NCBI GenBank assembly: GCA_027491255.1
Contig: JAIXWM010000184.1
Location: 30,669 to 94,668 of the forward strand
Direction: 5' to 3'
Origin: Rubrivivax sp.
GTDB taxonomy: Bacteria; Pseudomonadota; Gammaproteobacteria; Burkholderiales; Burkholderiaceae_C
Length of the DNA: 64,000 bases
Below are positions 6,683-25,031 of the stretch, piece after piece. A program made the position numbers and the translations under genes. The stretch's first letter is position 1; each line of letters opens with the position of its first letter. Below the pieces are notes generated by a model. It saw only the letters and a program-made list of their open reading frames with translations, searched no databases and had not been told where the DNA came from.

Positions 6683-7450
6683 TCAATGGAAAGGCGCGGT
6701 GGGGTAGGGCCGAAGATCCGCCGGCTCGATCTTCAGCCAGGCGGTGCTGTTCTGCACCCGGGCCTTGCGCTCGACCATGTGCATCAGCGTGTAGCGGCTG
6801 CGGCGCACCTGCTGCCACAGCGCTTCGTGCTGGTCGGGGGCCGTCGTTCGCAGCAGCATGCCCGGCACCTTGCCCGCGTTCAGCTGTGCGGTCAGCAATT
6901 CCAGCAGCGCATACGACGGGAACGAGGTCGATGCCGAGTCGATGAAGATCGAGCTGCTGTCGGCCATGCGTGGCATGAAGTGGCCCAGGATCTCCAGGAT
7001 GTCGTTCGGGCCGTGCCGGAAGTCCGAGAACAGCCAGTCCAGCTTCTGTCCGAGCACGGGGTAGGGCGGCATCGTGCGGCCGATGAACTCGAGATGGTCC
7101 TGCAGGCCGAAGCCCGCGACGATGTCGGCCATGTAGCCGGCGAAGTCCATGCCCCGCTGCGCCTGGGTGAACAGATCGGGCGAGTGGCCCAGGATTGCAG
7201 GCCAGTCCTGGCCGCTGTCGATGGTCCAGATTCTTCCGACGCCGACTTCCTTCATCGCCTGCGCGACCCACAGCGCCGTCGCGCCCAGGCCCGTGCCGAG
7301 TTCGACCACGGCCAGCGGCGTCTGCATCTTCACCAGCGCGTACAGGAACATCGACCAATCCTCGGTGCCGTAGACCGGACCGATGCGGTCGGTATGGGCC
7401 TTCAGGCGGGCGAAGGACTGGGCTTGCGCGAGGGCGGTGTCGTCGTTCAT
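6683..7450 (-). CDS. Class I SAM-dependent methyltransferase
   Basis: A 255-residue protein with a SAM-binding motif I, LAVVELGTGLGATALWVAQAM, at about residues 47-67, an acidic second-strand end (WTIDSGQD) and a later DWLFSDFRHGPND segment in the position of the catalytic loop. It fits the Methyltransf_24-like group found in glycan and natural product clusters. It is the last gene of the - strand run YjbH-like, NusG-like, WecA-like, TPR/oxygenase, methyltransferase, 19 bases after the oxygenase stop. The neighbourhood suggests modification of the polysaccharide or of a protein tied to its export. The substrate is unknown. Confidence 0.78.
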   Translation of the reverse strand: MNDDTALAQAQSFARLKAHTDRIGPVYGTEDWSMFLYALVKMQTPLAVVELGTGLGATALWVAQAMKEVGVGRIWTIDSGQDWPAILGHSPDLFTQAQRGMDFAGYMADIVAGFGLQDHLEFIGRTMPPYPVLGQKLDWLFSDFRHGPNDILEILGHFMPRMADSSSIFIDSASTSFPSYALLELLTAQLNAGKVPGMLLRTTAPDQHEALWQQVRRSRYTLMHMVERKARVQNSTAWLKIEPADLRPYPTAPFH

Positions 7451-7469
7451 CGGTGCACTCGGCGGGGGT

Positions 7470-8819
7470 TCAACGGGTCGCGCCCGGGCGCGCAGACAGA
7501 TCGAAGGCCAGGCTCAGGCGCGGTTGCGCACTGGAAAACGGCACGGTGTGGTGCCATTGCCAGGCCGGGAAGATGACGAGCATGCCCGGCTGGGGGGCGA
7601 TGCCGAAAGGCTCCGGCGGTGCATCGAGCGGGAACAGCGGGTCGGGCTCACCAAAGCACAGCCGGCCGGCGTCGCCTTCGCCGCGCGCCACGATCTCGGG
7701 CACGGCCGGGTAGTAGACCGCGCTGAGCAGACCGCCTGGGTGGATGTGCGGCGTCTCATAGCCTCCGTCGTGCATCAGCACGGCCCAGCCGCGCAGTTCG
7801 AGCGTGGCATCGACGAGCCGGCCCAGCGGATGCGGGCGGCTCCGCATCCCGTCCAGGTAATCGCGCAGCCGGTCCAGGATCCACCACGCCAGGGGCGGGA
7901 TCGGGCCGGACGCGTTCTCGAGCAGGTTCTCGATGCGCCGGCCGTTGTGCGTGGCCTGGCCGCGGTGCGAGCCGAGTTCGGGGTGGGCCTGGACATGCTG
8001 CAGGATGGCCGCGTTGAAGGACGGCACGTCGGCCCATCCTGCAGGGGCCTGTTCGAGCCGGTGCACGCGCAGCCAGCGCCGGCTGTCGTCGACTTCCGCG
8101 GCCTCCTCGGTGCGGCCGAGCTGGCGCAGCGCGATGCAGCGCAGCGCGATGTCGTAGCCGTCGTAGGCCCGCTGCCGGCGATGGGCCTCGACGAGCGCCA
8201 GCGCCTGCGCCGCCTCACCGCGCTTGAGGTGCAGTCCCACCAGAGCCTGGTATGCCGCATCCTGCCGCGGGTCCAGGCGCAGGCACTCGCGAAGGTGGGT
8301 CTCGGCCTCGGTGAGCCGGCCCTGGACCAGCCGCGTGTGCCCGAGGTGGTACTGCGCTGCCGACAGCTGCGGCCAGCGGCGCGTGATCATCGCGTAGCCT
8401 TCGGCGGCGGCGTCCAGGTGCCCCAGGTCCTGCGCCAGGAGCCAGCGGTTGAGCTGCACCAGCGGGTCGTCGGGCAGGCGCGACGCGGCTTCGATGGCCA
8501 GGGCGAGCGCCTGGTCCATGCGCCCCAGCACCCGCAGCAGTCCGGCCAGATTCGTGGCGGCCAAGGGGTCGTGCGGCGCCAGGTGGCGGGCCTGCCCCAT
8601 GGCTTGCAGCGCCAGGGGATAGCGCTTCTGCTCCATGGCGACCGCGCCCAGACCGAGCCAGGCCTGCGCGTTTCCGGGGTCGGCCCGCGCCGCCGCCGCG
8701 AATGCGCGTGCGGCGGCGTCCCACTGCCGGCGGCCGGCAGCCTCGGCGCCCGCCTCCATCAACGCCGCTGGCTGTTCGGCCACCGCCAGAGCGGAATCGG
8801 GCGGAGCAGCATTGGCCAT
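7470..8819 (-). CDS. TPR-repeat protein with C-terminal 2-oxoglutarate/Fe(II) oxygenase domain
   Basis: A 449-residue two-part protein. About residues 20-240 are alanine-rich helical pairs of TPR type (for example NAQAWLGLGAVAMEQKRYPL and AAYQALVGLHLKRGEAAQAL). The last 200 residues look like a putative 2OG-Fe(II) oxygenase (PF13759-like): YETPHIHPGGLLSAVYYPAVP holds the iron ligands, and GMLVIFPAWQWHHTVPF supplies the distal His, followed by an arginine (QPRLSLAFDL) that could bind 2-oxoglutarate. Such fusions often hydroxylate a protein or sugar held by the repeat domain. It sits between the WecA-like and methyltransferase genes on the same strand, 30 bases downstream of the former. The target is not known. 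Confidence 0.82.
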   Translation of the reverse strand: MANAAPPDSALAVAEQPAALMEAGAEAAGRRQWDAAARAFAAAARADPGNAQAWLGLGAVAMEQKRYPLALQAMGQARHLAPHDPLAATNLAGLLRVLGRMDQALALAIEAASRLPDDPLVQLNRWLLAQDLGHLDAAAEGYAMITRRWPQLSAAQYHLGHTRLVQGRLTEAETHLRECLRLDPRQDAAYQALVGLHLKRGEAAQALALVEAHRRQRAYDGYDIALRCIALRQLGRTEEAAEVDDSRRWLRVHRLEQAPAGWADVPSFNAAILQHVQAHPELGSHRGQATHNGRRIENLLENASGPIPPLAWWILDRLRDYLDGMRSRPHPLGRLVDATLELRGWAVLMHDGGYETPHIHPGGLLSAVYYPAVPEIVARGEGDAGRLCFGEPDPLFPLDAPPEPFGIAPQPGMLVIFPAWQWHHTVPFSSAQPRLSLAFDLSARPGATR

Positions 8820-8849
8820 CGGGCGTGGACGGTAGGCCTCAGCCCATGG

Positions 8850-9965
8850 CTACGCGCGTCGTGGCAGGAGCCGGCGACGTGCGGCGTGGAGCCAGCCCGG
8901 TGAGCGGAAGCGCACGATGCGCCAGTACAGGGCGAGGTAGAACACGATGAAACCGGCCAGCGCCGCCATGATGAGGGGCGTGTCGTTCCAGAACAGCATG
9001 GCCGGGATGACGCCGAGCATGCACAGGAACCACAGGTAGGGCGAGGTCATCGAATTGCGCCGGGTCATTGCGCGCGTGCTGCGGTCACGGATGGCCCAGC
9101 GCAGCACACGGCGGTAGATCAGCGAGTGCAGGTGAATGCCGTCAGGCTGTCCCGGTGAGGACCCACGGCGGCGGCGGCGATAGATGGAGAAAAGGGTTTC
9201 GAAGACCGGGTAGATGCAGATCAGCAGCGGGCACAGCGGCGACACCTCGCCGGGGTTGCGCACCAGCAGCAGCAGCGCCAGTTCCGCGAACCAGAAGCCC
9301 AGGAAGTACGCGCCACCGTCGCCCAGGAAGATGAGTCCGGCCGGAAAATTCCAGACGAAGAAGCCGAGCGTGGCGCCGACACCGGCCAGTGCCATCGTCA
9401 TGATCAAGGGGTCGCCGACCTGATAGGCCACATAGGCCAAGGCGGCGAGCATGATCACGGCGCACATGGACGCCAGGCCGTTGAAGCCGTCGATGATGTT
9501 GACGGCGTTGGCGATGCCGGCCACCGCGAAGACCGACAGCGCCACTGCGAAAACGCTGAAGCTCACGACCCAGTCCAGCACGGGAATGCCGGTCTCGACG
9601 ATCACGGCACCCAGCAGCCAGCAAGCCAGCAGCGCCGACGCCATCGTCGCCAACAGGCGCGGCAGCGGGCCGATCCTCTTGAGCAGGTCTTCGGCCAGCC
9701 CGAAGGCAAAAGCGGGCGTGGCGCAGACCATCAGCCACCAGGCGGCACGCAAGTCCTGCTGGTTGGTGAGGGTGAGCACGCCCAGCGCAGCCGCCACGCC
9801 CCAGGTGATGGCAAGGCCACCAGTGCGCGGCACCGGAACGGCATGGAATTTCTGCGGCCCGTCGAGTTCCTTGTCCATGGCCTGGCCGTCTCGCACGTGC
9901 GCGGCCCGGATCAGCAGGAGACTGGCCACCAGCGCGGCGACGAAGGCAATCAGGACCGTGGTCAA
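8850..9965 (-). CDS. WecA/MraY-like undecaprenyl-phosphate sugar-1-phosphate transferase
   Basis: A 371-residue polytopic membrane protein of glycosyltransferase family 4 in the phospho-GlcNAc/MurNAc-pentapeptide transferase sense. The diagnostic cytoplasmic motifs are present: DKELDGPQKFHAVPVPRTGG near residue 30, NAVNIIDGFNGLASM in the middle, and FLGDGGAYFLGFW, where the aspartates bind Mg2+. A late RRRRGSSPGQPDGIHLHSLIYRR segment matches the conserved histidine-rich loop. The enzyme would load a GlcNAc-type phosphosugar onto undecaprenyl phosphate at the inner membrane. The locus thus has two potential initiating transferases, this one and the PglC-like enzyme at 6055. It may start two different glycans, or one may serve another polymer. 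Confidence 0.9.
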   Translation of the reverse strand: MTTVLIAFVAALVASLLLIRAAHVRDGQAMDKELDGPQKFHAVPVPRTGGLAITWGVAAALGVLTLTNQQDLRAAWWLMVCATPAFAFGLAEDLLKRIGPLPRLLATMASALLACWLLGAVIVETGIPVLDWVVSFSVFAVALSVFAVAGIANAVNIIDGFNGLASMCAVIMLAALAYVAYQVGDPLIMTMALAGVGATLGFFVWNFPAGLIFLGDGGAYFLGFWFAELALLLLVRNPGEVSPLCPLLICIYPVFETLFSIYRRRRRGSSPGQPDGIHLHSLIYRRVLRWAIRDRSTRAMTRRNSMTSPYLWFLCMLGVIPAMLFWNDTPLIMAALAGFIVFYLALYWRIVRFRSPGWLHAARRRLLPRRA

Positions 9966-10195
9966 GATGGGATCGGCTGTCGATTGCCGTCAAATGAATG
10001 TAAGGGTATTTTTGATTCTAGGGGTTCCGCAGGATGATGGTCCGCCGGGCTTGCGGGATTGCGCAAGCGGCAGGCAGCGACCGGCAAGCGCCAGCCCGAG
10101 CCCGCCGTTGGGTCACCACCGAGCGGGGTGACGAGCGCAACGCCGCCCGGGTGGACGGGCTCGCGGCGTGGACCGTCGACGGGGCCTGAGGTGCC

Positions 10196-10813
10196 TCAGG
10201 AACCGACCTCGGCTGTCGCGTCGAGTTCGCCCGGCTCGACGGCGCGCAGCGCGGCCACCGGCACCGGGAGGCGCGCCTGTTTCTGGAGCAGTTCGATCAG
10301 AACCAGCGCCCGCGCCTGACCATCGGACATGTCGAAGACAGCGCGCACCCCGGCAAATGGCCCGGTCAGGATCTTGACCGTCTGCCCCGGGGTGAACTGC
10401 GGCACCACGGCGGATTCCCGGCGCCGCGCTTCCTCCTCGCGCAGGGTCTCCAGCACGCCCGGGGGAATCCGTGCCGCGACACCGCCGAACCGCACGATGG
10501 TCGACACGCCGAGGGTGCTGCGCACGGGCGCCCAGTTGATGCCGGGCGGCAGATGGATGAACAGGTAGCGCGGGAACAACGCCTCGTCGACGATGACGAG
10601 CTTGCGCTGGCGCACCTTCTCGACCCTCAACCGCGGCAGCCAGCACTCATAGCCCTGGTTGAACAGGTTGTCGAGAGCCCGCTGCTCCTGGCGGGGTTTG
10701 GTGTGAACAAGGTACCAGCTCACATCGAGATGCCCGGCATACCCGGGAGTTGGTTCATCGGTCGCAGCGCCCGACCTTGCAGCCGCGAAGTCCTGCCGGC
10801 ACCGCGGCTGCAC
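10196..10813 (-). CDS. NusG/RfaH-like transcription elongation (antitermination) factor
   Basis: A 205-residue NusG-family protein. The NGN domain begins at SWYLVHTKPRQEQRALDNL and contains ECWLPRLRV and EALFPRYLFIHLPPG. The KOW domain near the C-terminus has TPGQTVKILTGPFAGVRAVF. Family members bind RNA polymerase and prevent pausing or Rho termination over long operons; RfaH does this for surface polysaccharide operons. A GTG at 10723, just before SWYLV, gives a 175-residue protein closer to RfaH size and is a serious alternative to the ATG used here, since the first 30 residues are not conserved-looking. The position within an exopolysaccharide locus argues for a specialised paralog, not the housekeeping nusG, which normally sits beside secE and rplK. 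Confidence 0.88.
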   Translation of the reverse strand: MQPRCRQDFAAARSGAATDEPTPGYAGHLDVSWYLVHTKPRQEQRALDNLFNQGYECWLPRLRVEKVRQRKLVIVDEALFPRYLFIHLPPGINWAPVRSTLGVSTIVRFGGVAARIPPGVLETLREEEARRRESAVVPQFTPGQTVKILTGPFAGVRAVFDMSDGQARALVLIELLQKQARLPVPVAALRAVEPGELDATAEVGS

Positions 10814-10897
10814 ATGAACGAAGATGCTACCTCAGCACTGGCTCCGCCCGGCCGTCGGCAGGGCGCTCGACGCCCTGCGTGAGCAGGGCGGGGGCCC

Positions 10898-12982
10898 TCA
10901 GGAGCCTGCCGTGCGCAGCGTCAGGTAGGCCTCGCGCAGGCGCGGCAGATGATTGCGCAGGTGGGCCGGGCCCAGCCGCCCGGCATCCAGGCTGCGCAGT
11001 TCGATGTCCCAGGCCGGGGCGTACTCGCGCACCGCGTCAGGTTCCACCCAGTTGCCCGCCGATTGCTTGTCCGTGATGCGCGTGCGCAGACCCTGCCGCC
11101 ATTGGGAGGCCCCGAGGATCTGGACGGGGCCGGTGCGCGGCGCGGCGCGCGGCGTCAGCGGTACCGACAACTCCAGGCCGGCGAACTGGCGCATGCCGCC
11201 CTTGCGGTACACCAGGTGCGCGCCCAGGTCCCCCCACCAGCGGCTGATCGTGACCAGAGGCCCGTGGCTGCGGTCGGAGTACCGTTGGGCTCCGAACTCG
11301 ACCCAGACATTGCTCAACCAGCCGTCGCCGTCAGGCACCCAGCGGTAGCTGATCCACTGCTGGAAATCCGCCCCCTTGGGCATTCCCGGCTGGGTGACCA
11401 GTTCGCGCCCGCGCAGGCGCAGCACGTCATCGCGGCCAGGCACGAACAGCAGGGCCTCGCCTTCGACTCCCGGGGCGTCGTACTCGAAGACACCTGCCGC
11501 ACCGCCGAGCATGACGTGCCGGCCGAGCCACAGGGACTGGTGCAGCGCCAGCGCGCGCAAGCCTTCGGGCTGGCGCAGCGAAGCGAAGGCGCCGCTCGTG
11601 GTGGCCTGATCGGACACGGCGAGCCGCGTCATCGCGTTGGCCAGCAGTTGCGCGCCGGTCCACAGCGGCACCGTGATCGAGGTGCGCGCCGCGAGCGAGT
11701 AGTCGAAGGCGCCGTACTCCGTGCCCACGGCGTAGCGCAGATCCGGCCAGAGGCGCACCTGCAAGGCGGTGGCCGGGCCGGGTTGGTCGGAGATCCAATC
11801 CACACGCCGGTCGTCGGTCCGGCCCCCGCGTTGGACTTGCAGCGCTGCGCGTGCCGGCCCGGCGCGGCCGTCGCGCATGAAGTCGCGCCAGGCCGCCGCG
11901 GCCACATCGACGCTGAGGACCGCCTGGCCGGTCTTGAGCGCGGTGACGACGATGCGTTGAACCTCGGCCGGCGCCGTCGCGGCCGCGTGACCGAGGACGA
12001 CGCCGAGGGCGTCGAGTTCTTGCCGGCCGTAACGGTGGTTCTGGTATTCGATGACCCAGGTCCCGTTGTCGGCCTGGCCCACGCGCATCTTCTCCAGGCC
12101 CAGGCCGACCAGTGTGTCCTTCAGGCGGCCCAGGCGTGCTGGCCCGCTGTCGCTGGCAGCCTGCGGCACGTCGGACGCCGCGGAAGCTGCCGCCACCACC
12201 GGCTCCGCGGCGGGCTTGTCTTCGTCGAAAGGCACCGAGACGAAGAAGCCGACGGCGGTGGCTGCGGCCATGGGGCCGCGCGGCGCCGTGCGGTGAGCCG
12301 ACGCGGTGAACTGGGCGCCGCCGAGCGCTGCCAACGGGGGCGAGGCCCACCGAGCCCCCGCCAGGGGCTGCCGCCCGTCGTGCTCGGCCGACAGCGTCAG
12401 GGTGCCGAGCCTCTGACTGTGCGTCAGGCGGTAGTCGATGCCGCCAAAGATGCCATCGAGCGCGCGCCGCGTACCGGGCGTCTGCCGCGCCTGGCTGCTG
12501 CCCGCGCCCAGGGTGAGGCTCCAGGGTCCCCAGGGCTGGGTGGCGACGGCGTAGGCGGCGCGGAAGTTGACGGCCCCGCCGCGAAAGTCGTTCACGCCGA
12601 CGGCCACCCGTGGCGCGTCATCACCCCGGCCGATCGCTGTCGAGAGCTTGACGTTGGCCGAGAGGTCGCTGATGCCGCCCAGGGCCAGGCCTGTGGCGTC
12701 GCGCGTGCTGTACTCGGCGAGCCGGCCCACGATGTCCAGGCCCGGGGCCAGGCCCACGCCGAGCAGATAGGACACGCTGCGCTGGGACTGCCGGACCACC
12801 TGCGGCTCGCGCGGATTGCCCAGGCCCAGGGCCAGCGTGCCGCTGCCCAGCGGTCGGGCGTCCGGGATGGACAGCCCGCCGACCACACCGGTGGCATTCA
12901 GCCCCTGGGCGAGTGAGCAGGTGGCCCAGAGCCATCCTGTGGCCGCCAAGGCGAGTGGACGTCTTGAGCTGGGGTGTGTCAT
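10898..12982 (-). CDS. YjbH-like outer membrane beta-barrel protein of exopolysaccharide locus
   Basis: A 694-residue exported protein resembling the YjbH family, beta-barrel outer membrane proteins in exopolysaccharide export operons. The N-terminus shows a signal peptide ending around CSLAQG, then GVVGGLSIPDARPLGSGTLALG and alternating hydrophobic strands (SVSYLLGVGLAPGLDIVGRLAEY, LGGISDLSANVKLS). The ORF track begins at a TTG (13006); the ATG at 12982 gives a cleaner signal peptide and is used here. A proline/alanine-rich stretch at about residues 245-270 separates the N-terminal barrel from the C-terminal half. It is the first gene of the - strand polysaccharide run, 84 bases before the NusG-like gene. 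It probably assists polymer passage at the outer membrane. Confidence 0.78.
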   Translation of the reverse strand: MTHPSSRRPLALAATGWLWATCSLAQGLNATGVVGGLSIPDARPLGSGTLALGLGNPREPQVVRQSQRSVSYLLGVGLAPGLDIVGRLAEYSTRDATGLALGGISDLSANVKLSTAIGRGDDAPRVAVGVNDFRGGAVNFRAAYAVATQPWGPWSLTLGAGSSQARQTPGTRRALDGIFGGIDYRLTHSQRLGTLTLSAEHDGRQPLAGARWASPPLAALGGAQFTASAHRTAPRGPMAAATAVGFFVSVPFDEDKPAAEPVVAAASAASDVPQAASDSGPARLGRLKDTLVGLGLEKMRVGQADNGTWVIEYQNHRYGRQELDALGVVLGHAAATAPAEVQRIVVTALKTGQAVLSVDVAAAAWRDFMRDGRAGPARAALQVQRGGRTDDRRVDWISDQPGPATALQVRLWPDLRYAVGTEYGAFDYSLAARTSITVPLWTGAQLLANAMTRLAVSDQATTSGAFASLRQPEGLRALALHQSLWLGRHVMLGGAAGVFEYDAPGVEGEALLFVPGRDDVLRLRGRELVTQPGMPKGADFQQWISYRWVPDGDGWLSNVWVEFGAQRYSDRSHGPLVTISRWWGDLGAHLVYRKGGMRQFAGLELSVPLTPRAAPRTGPVQILGASQWRQGLRTRITDKQSAGNWVEPDAVREYAPAWDIELRSLDAGRLGPAHLRNHLPRLREAYLTLRTAGS

Positions 12983-13145
12983 GGCGACAGGCCGTGGGCA
13001 CGGCAAGGAAGGTGACCGGAAAGTCTAGCTGTCGCCGTGACCCGGGCCGCGTTGCCGGCGGGTGCAGCGTCGTCTCGAGACAACGAAGTCGCGCCAGTCG
13101 CGCCCGGCCGACTCGATGCTTGTCGTCGCGGCGCCGGCACTCAGG

Positions 13146-14682: not shown

Positions 14683-15516
14683 TCAGCGGCGGATGCGCCG
14701 CTCCACGGTGGCGAGCAAGGCTTCCGGCGACACCGGCTTGCGCAGTGTGACCAGGTTCGGGTGATTGCGGGCCGCATGTGCGGCCGCTTCGTCCCCGGAG
14801 ATCAGCACGGCCGGTACCTCCACTTGCGGGAAGGCCGCGCGCAGGCGCTCCAGCGCATGGAGCCCGGTGCCCGAGGCACCCAGGTGGAAATCGACGAGCG
14901 CGAGCCCTGGTCGTACGCGTGTGCCCCCGGCATCGAGCCAGCGTTCGAGCTCGTCGATGCTGCTGAGCTCCATCACCCTTGCTCCCCAGGCTTCGAGCAG
15001 CACGGCCGTGCTGAGGCGGGACCCCGGGTCGTCGTCGATGACCACGATCAGCGGCGTCGCATCGGCATCCTGCGCCTGCCCATGCCCCTCGCCTGAAGCG
15101 CTGTCGGCATCCGCCTCGCGCTCGGCGGGCGCGCTCGGAAGCGATGCCCATGGGGGCACAGCGTCGGGCGGACCGGCCCGGGCTGCTTCCCAGCCCGGTG
15201 CCGGGGACACCTTGGCGCCTGCCGACGATGTGTTCGCGGCCTCGTGCCTGGCTTCCTCGGCGGCCCAGGCGTCGATCAGGGCTTCCAGCGCCGCCACCGC
15301 ATCTGCAATGCCCTGCGCCAGCGGCTGCTCTGCCGGGCCGAGCGGCCGTGCGCGCAGCGCGGCGCAGAACAGTCCCAGCGCGTTCAGCGGCTGGCGCAGG
15401 TCGTGGTGGCGGCTTCGCCAGTCAGCGCGTGCCGGGCTCAGCGCACCGGGTGTGGTGGCATCGGCGACGAGTGGTGTGTCGGGCGCTGCGCCGACGGGCC
15501 TGTGCGCCTCAGCCAC
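14683..15516 (-). CDS. Receiver-domain protein with a kinase-like DHp segment but no ATPase domain
   Basis: A 277-residue protein in three parts. Residues 30-85 resemble the dimerisation/phosphotransfer helix of hybrid kinases (HHDLRQPLNALGLFCAALR, His38 in the phospho-acceptor position). Residues 90-152 are a low-complexity linker. Residues 155-277 form a complete receiver: acidic IDDD, phospho-acceptor Asp209 in LALVDFHLG, Ser in LISGDE, and Lys260 in LRKPV. The HATPase domain that normally lies between DHp and receiver in this family is absent. No N-, G- or F-box is visible in this frame, and the gap is too short for one. The GTG start overlaps the stop of the upstream LuxR-type regulator by 8 bases. 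It may be a phosphorelay intermediate or a decayed hybrid kinase. Confidence 0.75.
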   Translation of the reverse strand: MAEAHRPVGAAPDTPLVADATTPGALSPARADWRSRHHDLRQPLNALGLFCAALRARPLGPAEQPLAQGIADAVAALEALIDAWAAEEARHEAANTSSAGAKVSPAPGWEAARAGPPDAVPPWASLPSAPAEREADADSASGEGHGQAQDADATPLIVVIDDDPGSRLSTAVLLEAWGARVMELSSIDELERWLDAGGTRVRPGLALVDFHLGASGTGLHALERLRAAFPQVEVPAVLISGDEAAAHAARNHPNLVTLRKPVSPEALLATVERRIRR

Positions 15517-16362: not shown

Positions 16363-17691
16363 TCAGAACGTGGCGCCGGTGGCTCCCGTGGTCCGGGTGA
16401 AGGTGAGTGTGACCGAGAGGCTGGCCGTCTGCCGTCCGTCCGACACCGTGATGGAGTAGGTGCCGGTGCCGGAGGCCGTCGGAACGCCGGTGATCGCACC
16501 GGTGAGCGGGTTGAAGGTCAGGCCCGGAGGAATGGCCTTGCTGCCGGTGATCGACAGGGTCAGCAGGTCGCTTTCCGCGTCGGCAACCGTGGGCGTGTAC
16601 GTGAACGCCACGCCGACGGTCCCGGACGCCGATGCGGCGCCGGTGATGGTCGGGGCGGTGTTGGTCGGCGGTGTCACCGTCACCGTGACACCCTGCAGCG
16701 CTTGTTGGGCGGCGCTGGCAGAAGTCTGTGTTTCGATGGCGGCGGAGACGTTCTGGGTGACGATCTGTGCCTCGGGTTTGATCGAGGCCGCGGTGTTTGC
16801 CAGGGACACACCGGGGGCCCCTGCGATCGCGTCCACGACCGTGGTCGTCGACGTGGCCACGGATTGCGCCACCTGGCTGATCGCGGCATTGTTGAGCGCC
16901 AGTGTCACGCCCCCGGCCTTGCTCGAGTCCGCCGCCATGGCCGTGACGGCGGATGTCGTGGCCGCCTGGGTGATCGAGGCGATCTCGGCTCCGGTGTCCA
17001 GCTGGGTCGCTGTCTTGCCCACCAGGTTCGTGGCCAGCGCCGCCAGGACTTCGGTCTGGACCGACTTCACCGCCTGCGTCGAGAGCAGGCGCGTGTTGTC
17101 GTTGCCGCCGGCGGCCGTGTTCAGAACTTCGACCACCATGCTGGCGGTGGTCGTCACCGCCTTGACCAGCGCCGCCGCCGCCGGGGTGATCCCCTCGTCG
17201 ATCTTGGCGTTGTAGGCCACGCCCAGCGACTGGATCGTGGTCTTCAGGGCGGCGCGGTTCGCCTCGGGCGTGAGTTGCACCAGCGTCGTCAGCGGCGTGA
17301 CAGCCTGGCTGGTGACCGTCTGGCCGGCCTTGCCGCCCTCGGCCCGCATCGTGATCGCGGGCTGGCTGGTGATGGTGTCGGTGCCGCCGAGACTGACGAT
17401 CTCGTAGTCATAGGTCGGCACCGCGGTGAGCTTCCAGTTGCCGGTCGAGTCGGTCGTGGTCGAGTAGGCCTTCTCGTCAGCATCGACGATGCCGTTGCCC
17501 CGGACCTGGCCCGCAGGTATCCTGTCTGCGAACACGATGGCGCCACTGACCGGCCCCTGCACCACCGCTCCTCCGGGCGCGGCCACGGTCACCGGGTCGT
17601 CTTCCTTCAAGCCGCATCCGACTACTAGGGCCGCCGCGGCAGCCACCGCGGCCAGTCGGGTCGCGGCATGGAGAGAACGCTTTTCCATCAT
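16363..17691 (-). CDS. Lipoprotein with C-terminal Ig-like (He_PIG) domain
   Basis: A 442-residue exported lipoprotein. The ORF track opens at 17856, but the ATG at 17691 is preceded by a strong GAGGAG at 5 bases and gives a proper lipoprotein signal (LAAVAAAAALVVGCG, lipidated Cys). An early segment (VSGAIVFADRIPAGQVRGNG...DSTGNWKLTAVP) looks like a carboxypeptidase-regulatory-like fold. The central 200 residues are alanine/threonine-rich helices. The last 90 residues match the putative Ig domain He_PIG (TNTAPTITGAASASGTVGVAFTYTP, then IPPGLTFNPLTGAITGVPTASGT). This is an envelope or surface protein of unknown role. It is a single-gene unit ending at a strong terminator. Confidence 0.85.
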   Translation of the reverse strand: MMEKRSLHAATRLAAVAAAAALVVGCGLKEDDPVTVAAPGGAVVQGPVSGAIVFADRIPAGQVRGNGIVDADEKAYSTTTDSTGNWKLTAVPTYDYEIVSLGGTDTITSQPAITMRAEGGKAGQTVTSQAVTPLTTLVQLTPEANRAALKTTIQSLGVAYNAKIDEGITPAAAALVKAVTTTASMVVEVLNTAAGGNDNTRLLSTQAVKSVQTEVLAALATNLVGKTATQLDTGAEIASITQAATTSAVTAMAADSSKAGGVTLALNNAAISQVAQSVATSTTTVVDAIAGAPGVSLANTAASIKPEAQIVTQNVSAAIETQTSASAAQQALQGVTVTVTPPTNTAPTITGAASASGTVGVAFTYTPTVADAESDLLTLSITGSKAIPPGLTFNPLTGAITGVPTASGTGTYSITVSDGRQTASLSVTLTFTRTTGATGATF

Positions 17692-18077
17692 CAGTACTCC
17701 TCGAGAAACGAAACGACGGCGCACACCCGCCATGAAACGACTGAAAACGCGACCGGCCGGGACTCCTGGGGCCCTTGCTTGAACCTCATGGCCCGCCGGC
17801 CTCAGGTTTCGCACGGAAGGCCGTTGTCCTGGTCGAATCGAGCGCGTGTTGACCATAGGCTGGGTTCGTCAGCAACCCTTACATTCATGATAAACCCATA
17901 TGGGCGGTGATGCCACTTCCGCCAGTTACCGATTGCGCTACCGTCGTCGCATTGACGCGGAAGTTTTGGTCTGCGGCTGAGGAACCCGGCAGGGTCGTGC
18001 TGCGCCTCGGCAATCGAAGCCGGCCGCAACCGGCCGGCATGAGCGAAGTGAAGAAAGACGCTCAGCCTCTGCGGCGC
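17692..18077. other. Intergenic gap between lipoprotein and permease genes
   Basis: About 385 bases without a supported gene; ORFs here lack family features or are N-terminal overextensions. It holds a Shine-Dalgarno sequence for the lipoprotein, an AT-rich patch near 17875-17905 with the palindrome CCCATATGGG, and a 7-bp GC hairpin (GCCGGCC/GGCCGGC, 18019-18038) that may end the permease transcript. The lipoprotein promoter is presumably in the AT-rich patch, but no hexamer pair stands out. Confidence 0.45.
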
Positions 18078-24461: not shown

Positions 24462-25031
24462 TCAGTCTGCCACTCGCGCCTGAAGGCGTGGCGCCGCCGC
24501 ATCCTTCGGCGCCACCTTCGGTGTTCCTCCGGCGCGTTCCAGCGGCCAGGCGACCGCCAGCGTCGGGTCGTCCCAGGCGATCGTGCGCTCGCAATCGCGC
24601 GCGTAGACGTCAGTGGTCTTGTAGAGGAAATGCGTGTCGTCTTCCAGTGCGATGAAGCCGTGCGCCAGGCCCTCCGGAATCCACATCTGCAGGCGGTTGG
24701 CCGCTGACAGTTCGATGCCCACCCATTGCCCGTAAGTGGCCGACTGCGGCCGGATGTCGACAGCCACGTCCCAGACCGCGCCGTGCACGACGCGCACGAG
24801 CTTGCCCTGCGGGTGCGGATCGGCCTGGTAATGCAGTCCGCGCAGCACGCCGCGCGCGCTGCAGGAGTGGTTGTCCTGCACGAAGGGGCGTGGTGCAGGC
24901 AGTCCGAGCGCCGCGAGCTCGCGGTGAAAGCGTGGTTGGTTGTAGGTCTCCATGAACCAGCCGCGCTCGTCGCCGAAGACCGTGGGCTCGACGATGACGA
25001 CGCCGTCGATGCGGGTGGGAACCAGCTTCAT
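24462..25031 (-). CDS. rfbC: dTDP-4-dehydrorhamnose 3,5-epimerase
   Basis: A 189-residue cupin-type epimerase, third step of dTDP-L-rhamnose synthesis. Diagnostic segments are VTVIEPTVF-like VVIVEPTVFGDERGWFMETYN, FVQDNHSCSARGVLRGLHYQ with its catalytic histidine, KLVRVVHGAVWDVAVDIR, and IPEGLAHGFIALEDDTHFLYK. The length is normal. It is the last gene of rfbBDAC and its ATG lies directly after the rfbA stop. The gene converges with tamA with only 17 bases between the stops. Confidence 0.96.
   Translation of the reverse strand: MKLVPTRIDGVVIVEPTVFGDERGWFMETYNQPRFHRELAALGLPAPRPFVQDNHSCSARGVLRGLHYQADPHPQGKLVRVVHGAVWDVAVDIRPQSATYGQWVGIELSAANRLQMWIPEGLAHGFIALEDDTHFLYKTTDVYARDCERTIAWDDPTLAVAWPLERAGGTPKVAPKDAAAPRLQARVAD

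Follow-up and report, generated by a model that had tools for sequence, protein, structure and literature searches.

Is a protein that combines the phosphotransfer helix of a histidine kinase with a receiver, but has no ATPase domain, an error of the assembly, the relic of a kinase or a gene that has been kept for a purpose of its own? We asked this of a gene located in a window of 64,000 nucleotides (the whole stretch of DNA analysed) from a Rubrivivax genome. We refer to its product as the DHp-REC protein, and to the architecture as the short form.

A hybrid kinase derivative next to a LuxR-type regulator

The gene encodes 277 residues and starts with GTG (Table 1). The two-helix DHp carries HHDLRQPLNALGLF, with His38 (codon at 15403-15405) as the phospho-accepting residue. 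Its match to Pfam HisKA is partial (residues 38-82, E 4.8e-4) and at 20.6 bits falls below the gathering cut-off of 26.9; the DHp profile of the full-length orthologs described below matches it at 6.8e-11. The receiver scores above the Response_reg cut-off in Pfam (residues 157-271, E 4.8e-9) and contains the acidic pocket Asp161/Asp162, the phospho-acceptor Asp209 (codon 14890-14892), Ser240 and Lys260. The AlphaFold2 model of the monomer, built with 18 aligned homologs, has a hairpin of helices 30-56 and 63-99 (pLDDT about 80-90), a disordered stretch at residues 101-149 (about 40) and a confident receiver at residues 156-276 (mostly above 90). The top matches listed by Foldseek against the PDB cover the receiver only, and searching solved structures with the sequence returned no match. 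The DHp-like helix and the complete receiver reported in the first-pass annotation are thus borne out by Pfam, by the model and by the alignment. The same annotation had described a low-complexity linker of about 65 residues; the linker is indeed disordered, variable and rich in Ala, Pro, Gly and Glu, but it comprises about 55 residues. It lies where the orthologs have their ATPase domain.

Table 1. Features of the DHp-REC locus, in window coordinates.
Feature	Position	Strand	Basis
DHp-REC protein, 277 aa	14683..15516	(-)	ORF and translation, Pfam, conservation in five genomes
DHp helical hairpin, residues 28-99	15220..15435	(-)	partial Pfam HisKA, DHp profile, AlphaFold2 hairpin, omega 0.20
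Linker, residues 100-155	15052..15219	(-)	AlphaFold2 pLDDT, omega 0.67, no ATPase profile match
Receiver domain, residues 156-277	14686..15051	(-)	Pfam, AlphaFold2, PDB Foldseek matches, alignment
LuxR/NarL-type response regulator, 234 aa	15509..16213	(-)	Pfam Response_reg and GerE; omega 0.10-0.11
8-nt overlap GTGGCTGA, LuxR stop and DHp-REC start	15509..15516	(-)	sequence; other short-form loci

Pfam finds no HATPase_c in the 277 residues, and no hydrophobic segment is seen in the protein. It therefore has two of the three hallmarks of a hybrid histidine kinase, a HisKA-type DHp with its His and a C-terminal receiver, and lacks the third, HATPase_c; with its conserved His and no HATPase it falls among the HisKA-without-HATPase proteins, or "incomplete HKs". 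The best family match is to NF041832, the NahK/ErcS hybrid sensor histidine kinases (3.8e-22), through the receiver part, and its 78.9 bits compare with a curated cut-off of 400. Judged by these scores, the protein is a derivative of the NahK/ErcS family, without the ATPase and the sensor, and not a member. More generally, it is a derivative of a hybrid histidine kinase.

The gene directly upstream encodes a response regulator of the LuxR/NarL type, with a receiver and a GerE helix-turn-helix in Pfam and Asp54 as phospho-acceptor. Its best NCBIfam match is ErdR (NF041830) at 133 bits, the cut-off being 390, which marks it as ErdR-like only and not as an ErdR member. The overlap with a LuxR-type regulator that had been noted before is correct and measures 8 nt; the same overlapping order recurs at other short-form loci, and the two genes are likely coupled in translation through it.

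Distribution and origin of the short form

The short architecture is present in five of the 81 genomes of the genus: the genome of the window (G000), G101, G020, G081 and G011 (L032 and G101 (C343) were taken as one genome and counted once). The search of related genomes for the same domain loss that the first-pass annotation had recommended was thus productive, with four further genomes carrying it. At E<=1e-15, 69 of the 81 genomes have a match. Five of these carry the short form; in the other 64, out of 76 remaining genomes, the receiver match lies within a full-length NahK/ErcS-like hybrid kinase or a longer ORF. G384, G352, G275 and G095 were considered as additional short forms and rejected, for ATPase sequence is present and the ends are contig ends or frame limits; the match of 261 aa in G095 is a full-length kinase with ATPase sequence, broken by the contig end. 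Sampling of the family, order and class yielded no short forms at the thresholds applied, which would miss independently derived, more diverged ones. In four nearly complete genomes of the genus (G024, G063, G062 and G084) both the short form and the full-length kinase are missing at E<=1e-15, which suggests that the system has been lost there or has diverged strongly.

In the full-length proteins examined, HisKA, HATPase_c and REC are combined with an N-terminal region that contains several hydrophobic segments. The orthologs in the genus score about 320-324 bits against NF041832, somewhat below the cut-off, and for those at corresponding loci the match spans DHp, ATPase and REC. A full-length query recovers the ortholog at 63-69% identity in G074 and G078; in the five short-form genomes the same query finds no ortholog, the kinases that it does match being at most 37% identical. 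In most full-length loci whose neighbourhood was read, the gene immediately upstream of the kinase encodes a LuxR protein of the same family. The short loci have such a gene in front of DHp-REC (in G011 it is partial, at the contig end), and they share TauE and DUF1841 neighbours with some of the full-length loci, namely L070 and L074. Rough gene calls revealed no LuxR gene at the full-length loci L067, L073, L076 and L079; either the linkage of kinase and LuxR is not universal or the gene was missed there. Synteny, the shared partner and sequence kinship all indicate that the parent was a hybrid kinase that lost its sensor and ATPase.

We built profiles of the sensor, DHp, ATPase and REC regions from 13 full-length homologs and ran them over the five short loci in all six frames. 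The DHp and REC profiles match at each of them, and no remnant of the sensor or the ATPase is found in any frame; the control loci are matched by all four profiles, in the case of the ATPase at 1e-80 or better. A frameshift, an assembly error and a hidden ATPase were rejected by this search, which together with the Pfam result confirms the earlier statement that the HATPase is missing. Homologs retaining the ATPase, which the first-pass annotation had named as evidence against its reading, do exist elsewhere, but the frameshift-hidden ATPase that it had named beside them does not at any of the five short loci. Because the orthologs at the corresponding locus of other species retain the domain and no frame at the short loci contains a remnant, the loss is real and lineage-specific.

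In the RpoB tree G000, G101 and G081 form a clade at 100/100. G020 and G011, which gave no RpoB match, were placed only by their own short proteins, and G020 also by its LuxR protein; in the LuxR tree the partners of the short forms group at 98/95. A tree of DHp plus REC, in which rows were dropped and one long outlier remained, was not relied on. Since the species and LuxR trees group the short-form genomes, the short form probably has a single origin, in place, from which it was inherited vertically.

Selection and conserved residues

Between the window and G101, omega (Nei-Gojobori, NG86) is 0.20 for the DHp and 0.21 for REC, compared with 0.67 for the linker and 0.79 for the N-terminal tail. 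Comparisons of G020, G081 and G011 with one another give 0.17-0.29 for the DHp and 0.32-0.53 for REC. As omega is noisy for short regions and the deepest comparisons are near saturation, we rely on the contrast between regions. The DHp and the receiver are under purifying selection, the linker much less. The median DHp omega of the full-length kinases, 0.18-0.20, equals the short-form value. An isolated pseudogene was rejected in view of these omega values and of an architecture conserved in five genomes. Of the decayed hybrid kinase that had been offered as one explanation, beside a phosphorelay middleman and a phosphatase, the kinase origin stands, through synteny, partner and kinship, but the decay does not.

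Across the five genomes the DHp block HHxLRQPLNALGLFCAAL differs at one residue and is otherwise identical. For three of the five short-form proteins, overall identity to the window protein is only about 40%, and near-identity of the block despite this divergence is more than chance would give. Outside the core motif the short-form DHp departs from the consensus of the full-length proteins. In the alignment of 18 short and full proteins His38, Leu40, Arg41, Gln42, Pro43, Asp162, Asp209 and Lys260 are invariant. The residue that follows the phospho-His is Asp in 40 of 40 distinct full-length DHp sequences and in the window and G101 proteins, and Ala in those of G020, G081 and G011 (L063, L065 and L066); the replacement of the acidic residue is confined to this subclade. 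In CrdS, kinase activity depends on the acid that follows the His and phosphatase activity does not; for the residue at H+4 the dependence is reversed (PMC3510030). Giving up a kinase-only residue while keeping the others would fit phosphate exchange without autophosphorylation.

A proposed phosphotransfer module and its alternatives

We propose, with a probability of roughly 70%, that a single loss of sensor and ATPase turned the kinase into a DHp-type phosphotransfer module serving the LuxR partner. One event in the ancestor of the clade would have stripped a NahK/ErcS-like hybrid kinase of its membrane sensor and its ATPase, leaving beside the LuxR-type regulator a DHp, a linker and a receiver that together would be unable to autophosphorylate. 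Once sensor and ATPase are gone, the receiver is the sole input domain that remains, and the DHp alone offers a surface for output towards LuxR. The anatomy of the protein, its conservation, origin, partner and selection are results of the analysis; that it dimerises and transfers phosphate, in which direction and from which donor kinase, we infer. In the forward direction, another kinase would phosphorylate Asp209, the phosphoryl group would pass to His38 in the DHp, presumably a dimer, and from there it would reach Asp54 of the LuxR regulator, in the order of Spo0F-Spo0B-Spo0A with the first two steps fused. The same chemical path run backwards would drain LuxR~P. We favour the forward relay, tentatively and at a little under even odds, over the reverse drain, which we consider somewhat less probable. 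That a hybrid kinase-regulator pair became a soluble, receiver-driven relay part, fusing Spo0F-like and Spo0B-like steps and fed by a different, unlinked kinase, is possible but less likely than not.

The main alternative explanation is that the protein is a dedicated phosphatase, whose DHp would bind LuxR~P and hydrolyse it directly, with Gln42 positioning the water and the receiver merely gating the reaction and having no share in phosphotransfer. The isolated DHp of EnvZ and that of NtrB suffice for phosphatase activity (PMC3510030), the H+4 position that is phosphatase-specific in CrdS is an invariant Gln in short and full forms, and the kinase-specific acid at H+1 is lost in three of the five short forms. 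However, this Gln is also present in the full-length kinases, so that its retention is not specific and its role in the subfamily is putative, and the receiver combines every catalytic residue with a low omega, which is beyond what a mere gate would need. We regard this explanation as improbable; because the receiver keeps its full active site under constraint, movement of the phosphoryl group among Asp209, His38 and LuxR Asp54 is favoured. A decoy or scaffold that titrates LuxR or another kinase by binding, free of phosphate chemistry, might have lost the H+1 acid as part of the clade has, and kinase-derived PhyT can also sequester its regulator (PMC5898713); yet an invariant phospho-acceptor His38 and a receiver Asp209 within a full active site are unexpected in a pure binder, and this role is very improbable. 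That two domains were lost from a hybrid kinase also agrees with a decaying pseudogene or an artefact hiding the ATPase, but given one architecture in five separately assembled genomes, open reading frames, no remnant in any frame and an omega of about 0.2 on DHp and REC, this is hardly credible.

The phosphotransfer module that we prefer has known counterparts. In Spo0F-Spo0B-Spo0A and CckA-ChpT-CtrA, a receiver passes phosphate to a dimeric DHp-type phosphotransferase and this to an output regulator. A degenerate ATPase-like domain persists in Spo0B and ChpT, whereas the DHp-REC protein has no such remnant, and the receiver and phosphotransferase that are separate proteins in those pathways are fused in it. 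In Sphingomonas melonis the conserved His of the kinase-derived PhyT passes phosphate from the single-domain receiver SdrG to PhyR; PhyT, Spo0B and ChpT are kinase-derived DHp proteins that transfer phosphate only (PMC5898713). The DHp-REC protein, too, derives from a histidine kinase, and by analogy its forward relay would resemble SdrG-PhyT-PhyR; unlike it, PhyT is membrane-bound and has its receiver in a separate protein. HisKA proteins without HATPase are listed in P2CS as "possible incomplete histidine kinase" (PMC2716373), and the nonenzymatic HK-like proteins of archaea include REC+HisKA forms such as AF_1472, for which phosphotransfer, phosphatase or protein-interaction roles were suggested, none having been studied experimentally at that date (PMC5847659). 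They share the conserved His and the missing ATPase with the window protein, and some have a REC; however, those described are archaeal, contain PAS/GAF domains and have unknown partners (PMC5847659, PMC2716373), whereas the present analysis traces the parent kinase, a probable single origin and the LuxR partner. As HisKA proteins without ATPase have already been described, the DHp-REC protein is a well-traced variant and not a new kind.

The origin of Spo0B, ChpT and PhyT from kinases has so far been inferred, mostly from folds. Unusually, a single genus here offers parent, derivative and partner for comparison at corresponding loci, so that the proposed conversion of a kinase into a phosphotransferase can be studied directly in the two forms, and with it the fate of kinase-only residues, such as the Asp to Ala change after the phospho-His in the subclade. 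A HisKA-REC protein without ATPase should neither be annotated as a kinase nor dismissed as debris.

A candidate for the donor is an orphan hybrid kinase (G000:C8:9829-11685; L138:4827-6686) with HisKA, HATPase_c and REC and the motif HDLRQPIHSMN, which has no response regulator adjacent and adjoins a ComEC-like competence gene. Each of the five short-form genomes has an ortholog of it (53% identity or more), as do only three of the 76 others in the genus. The five genomes look like one clade, so this co-occurrence counts as about one event, and the kinase is a possible donor to DHp-REC, a lead and not statistical evidence. In the window itself, the LuxR gene is immediately preceded, on its own strand, by a gene for a protein with a putative Ig domain (He_PIG; 16363-17856(-)), which among the neighbourhoods compared was found only in the window and G101. 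The window also contains an exopolysaccharide-like gene group (6683-13006(-) and 24462-25031(-)) with a NusG-type antiterminator, a YjbH-like protein, a family-4 glycosyltransferase, a methyltransferase and a dTDP-4-dehydrorhamnose 3,5-epimerase.
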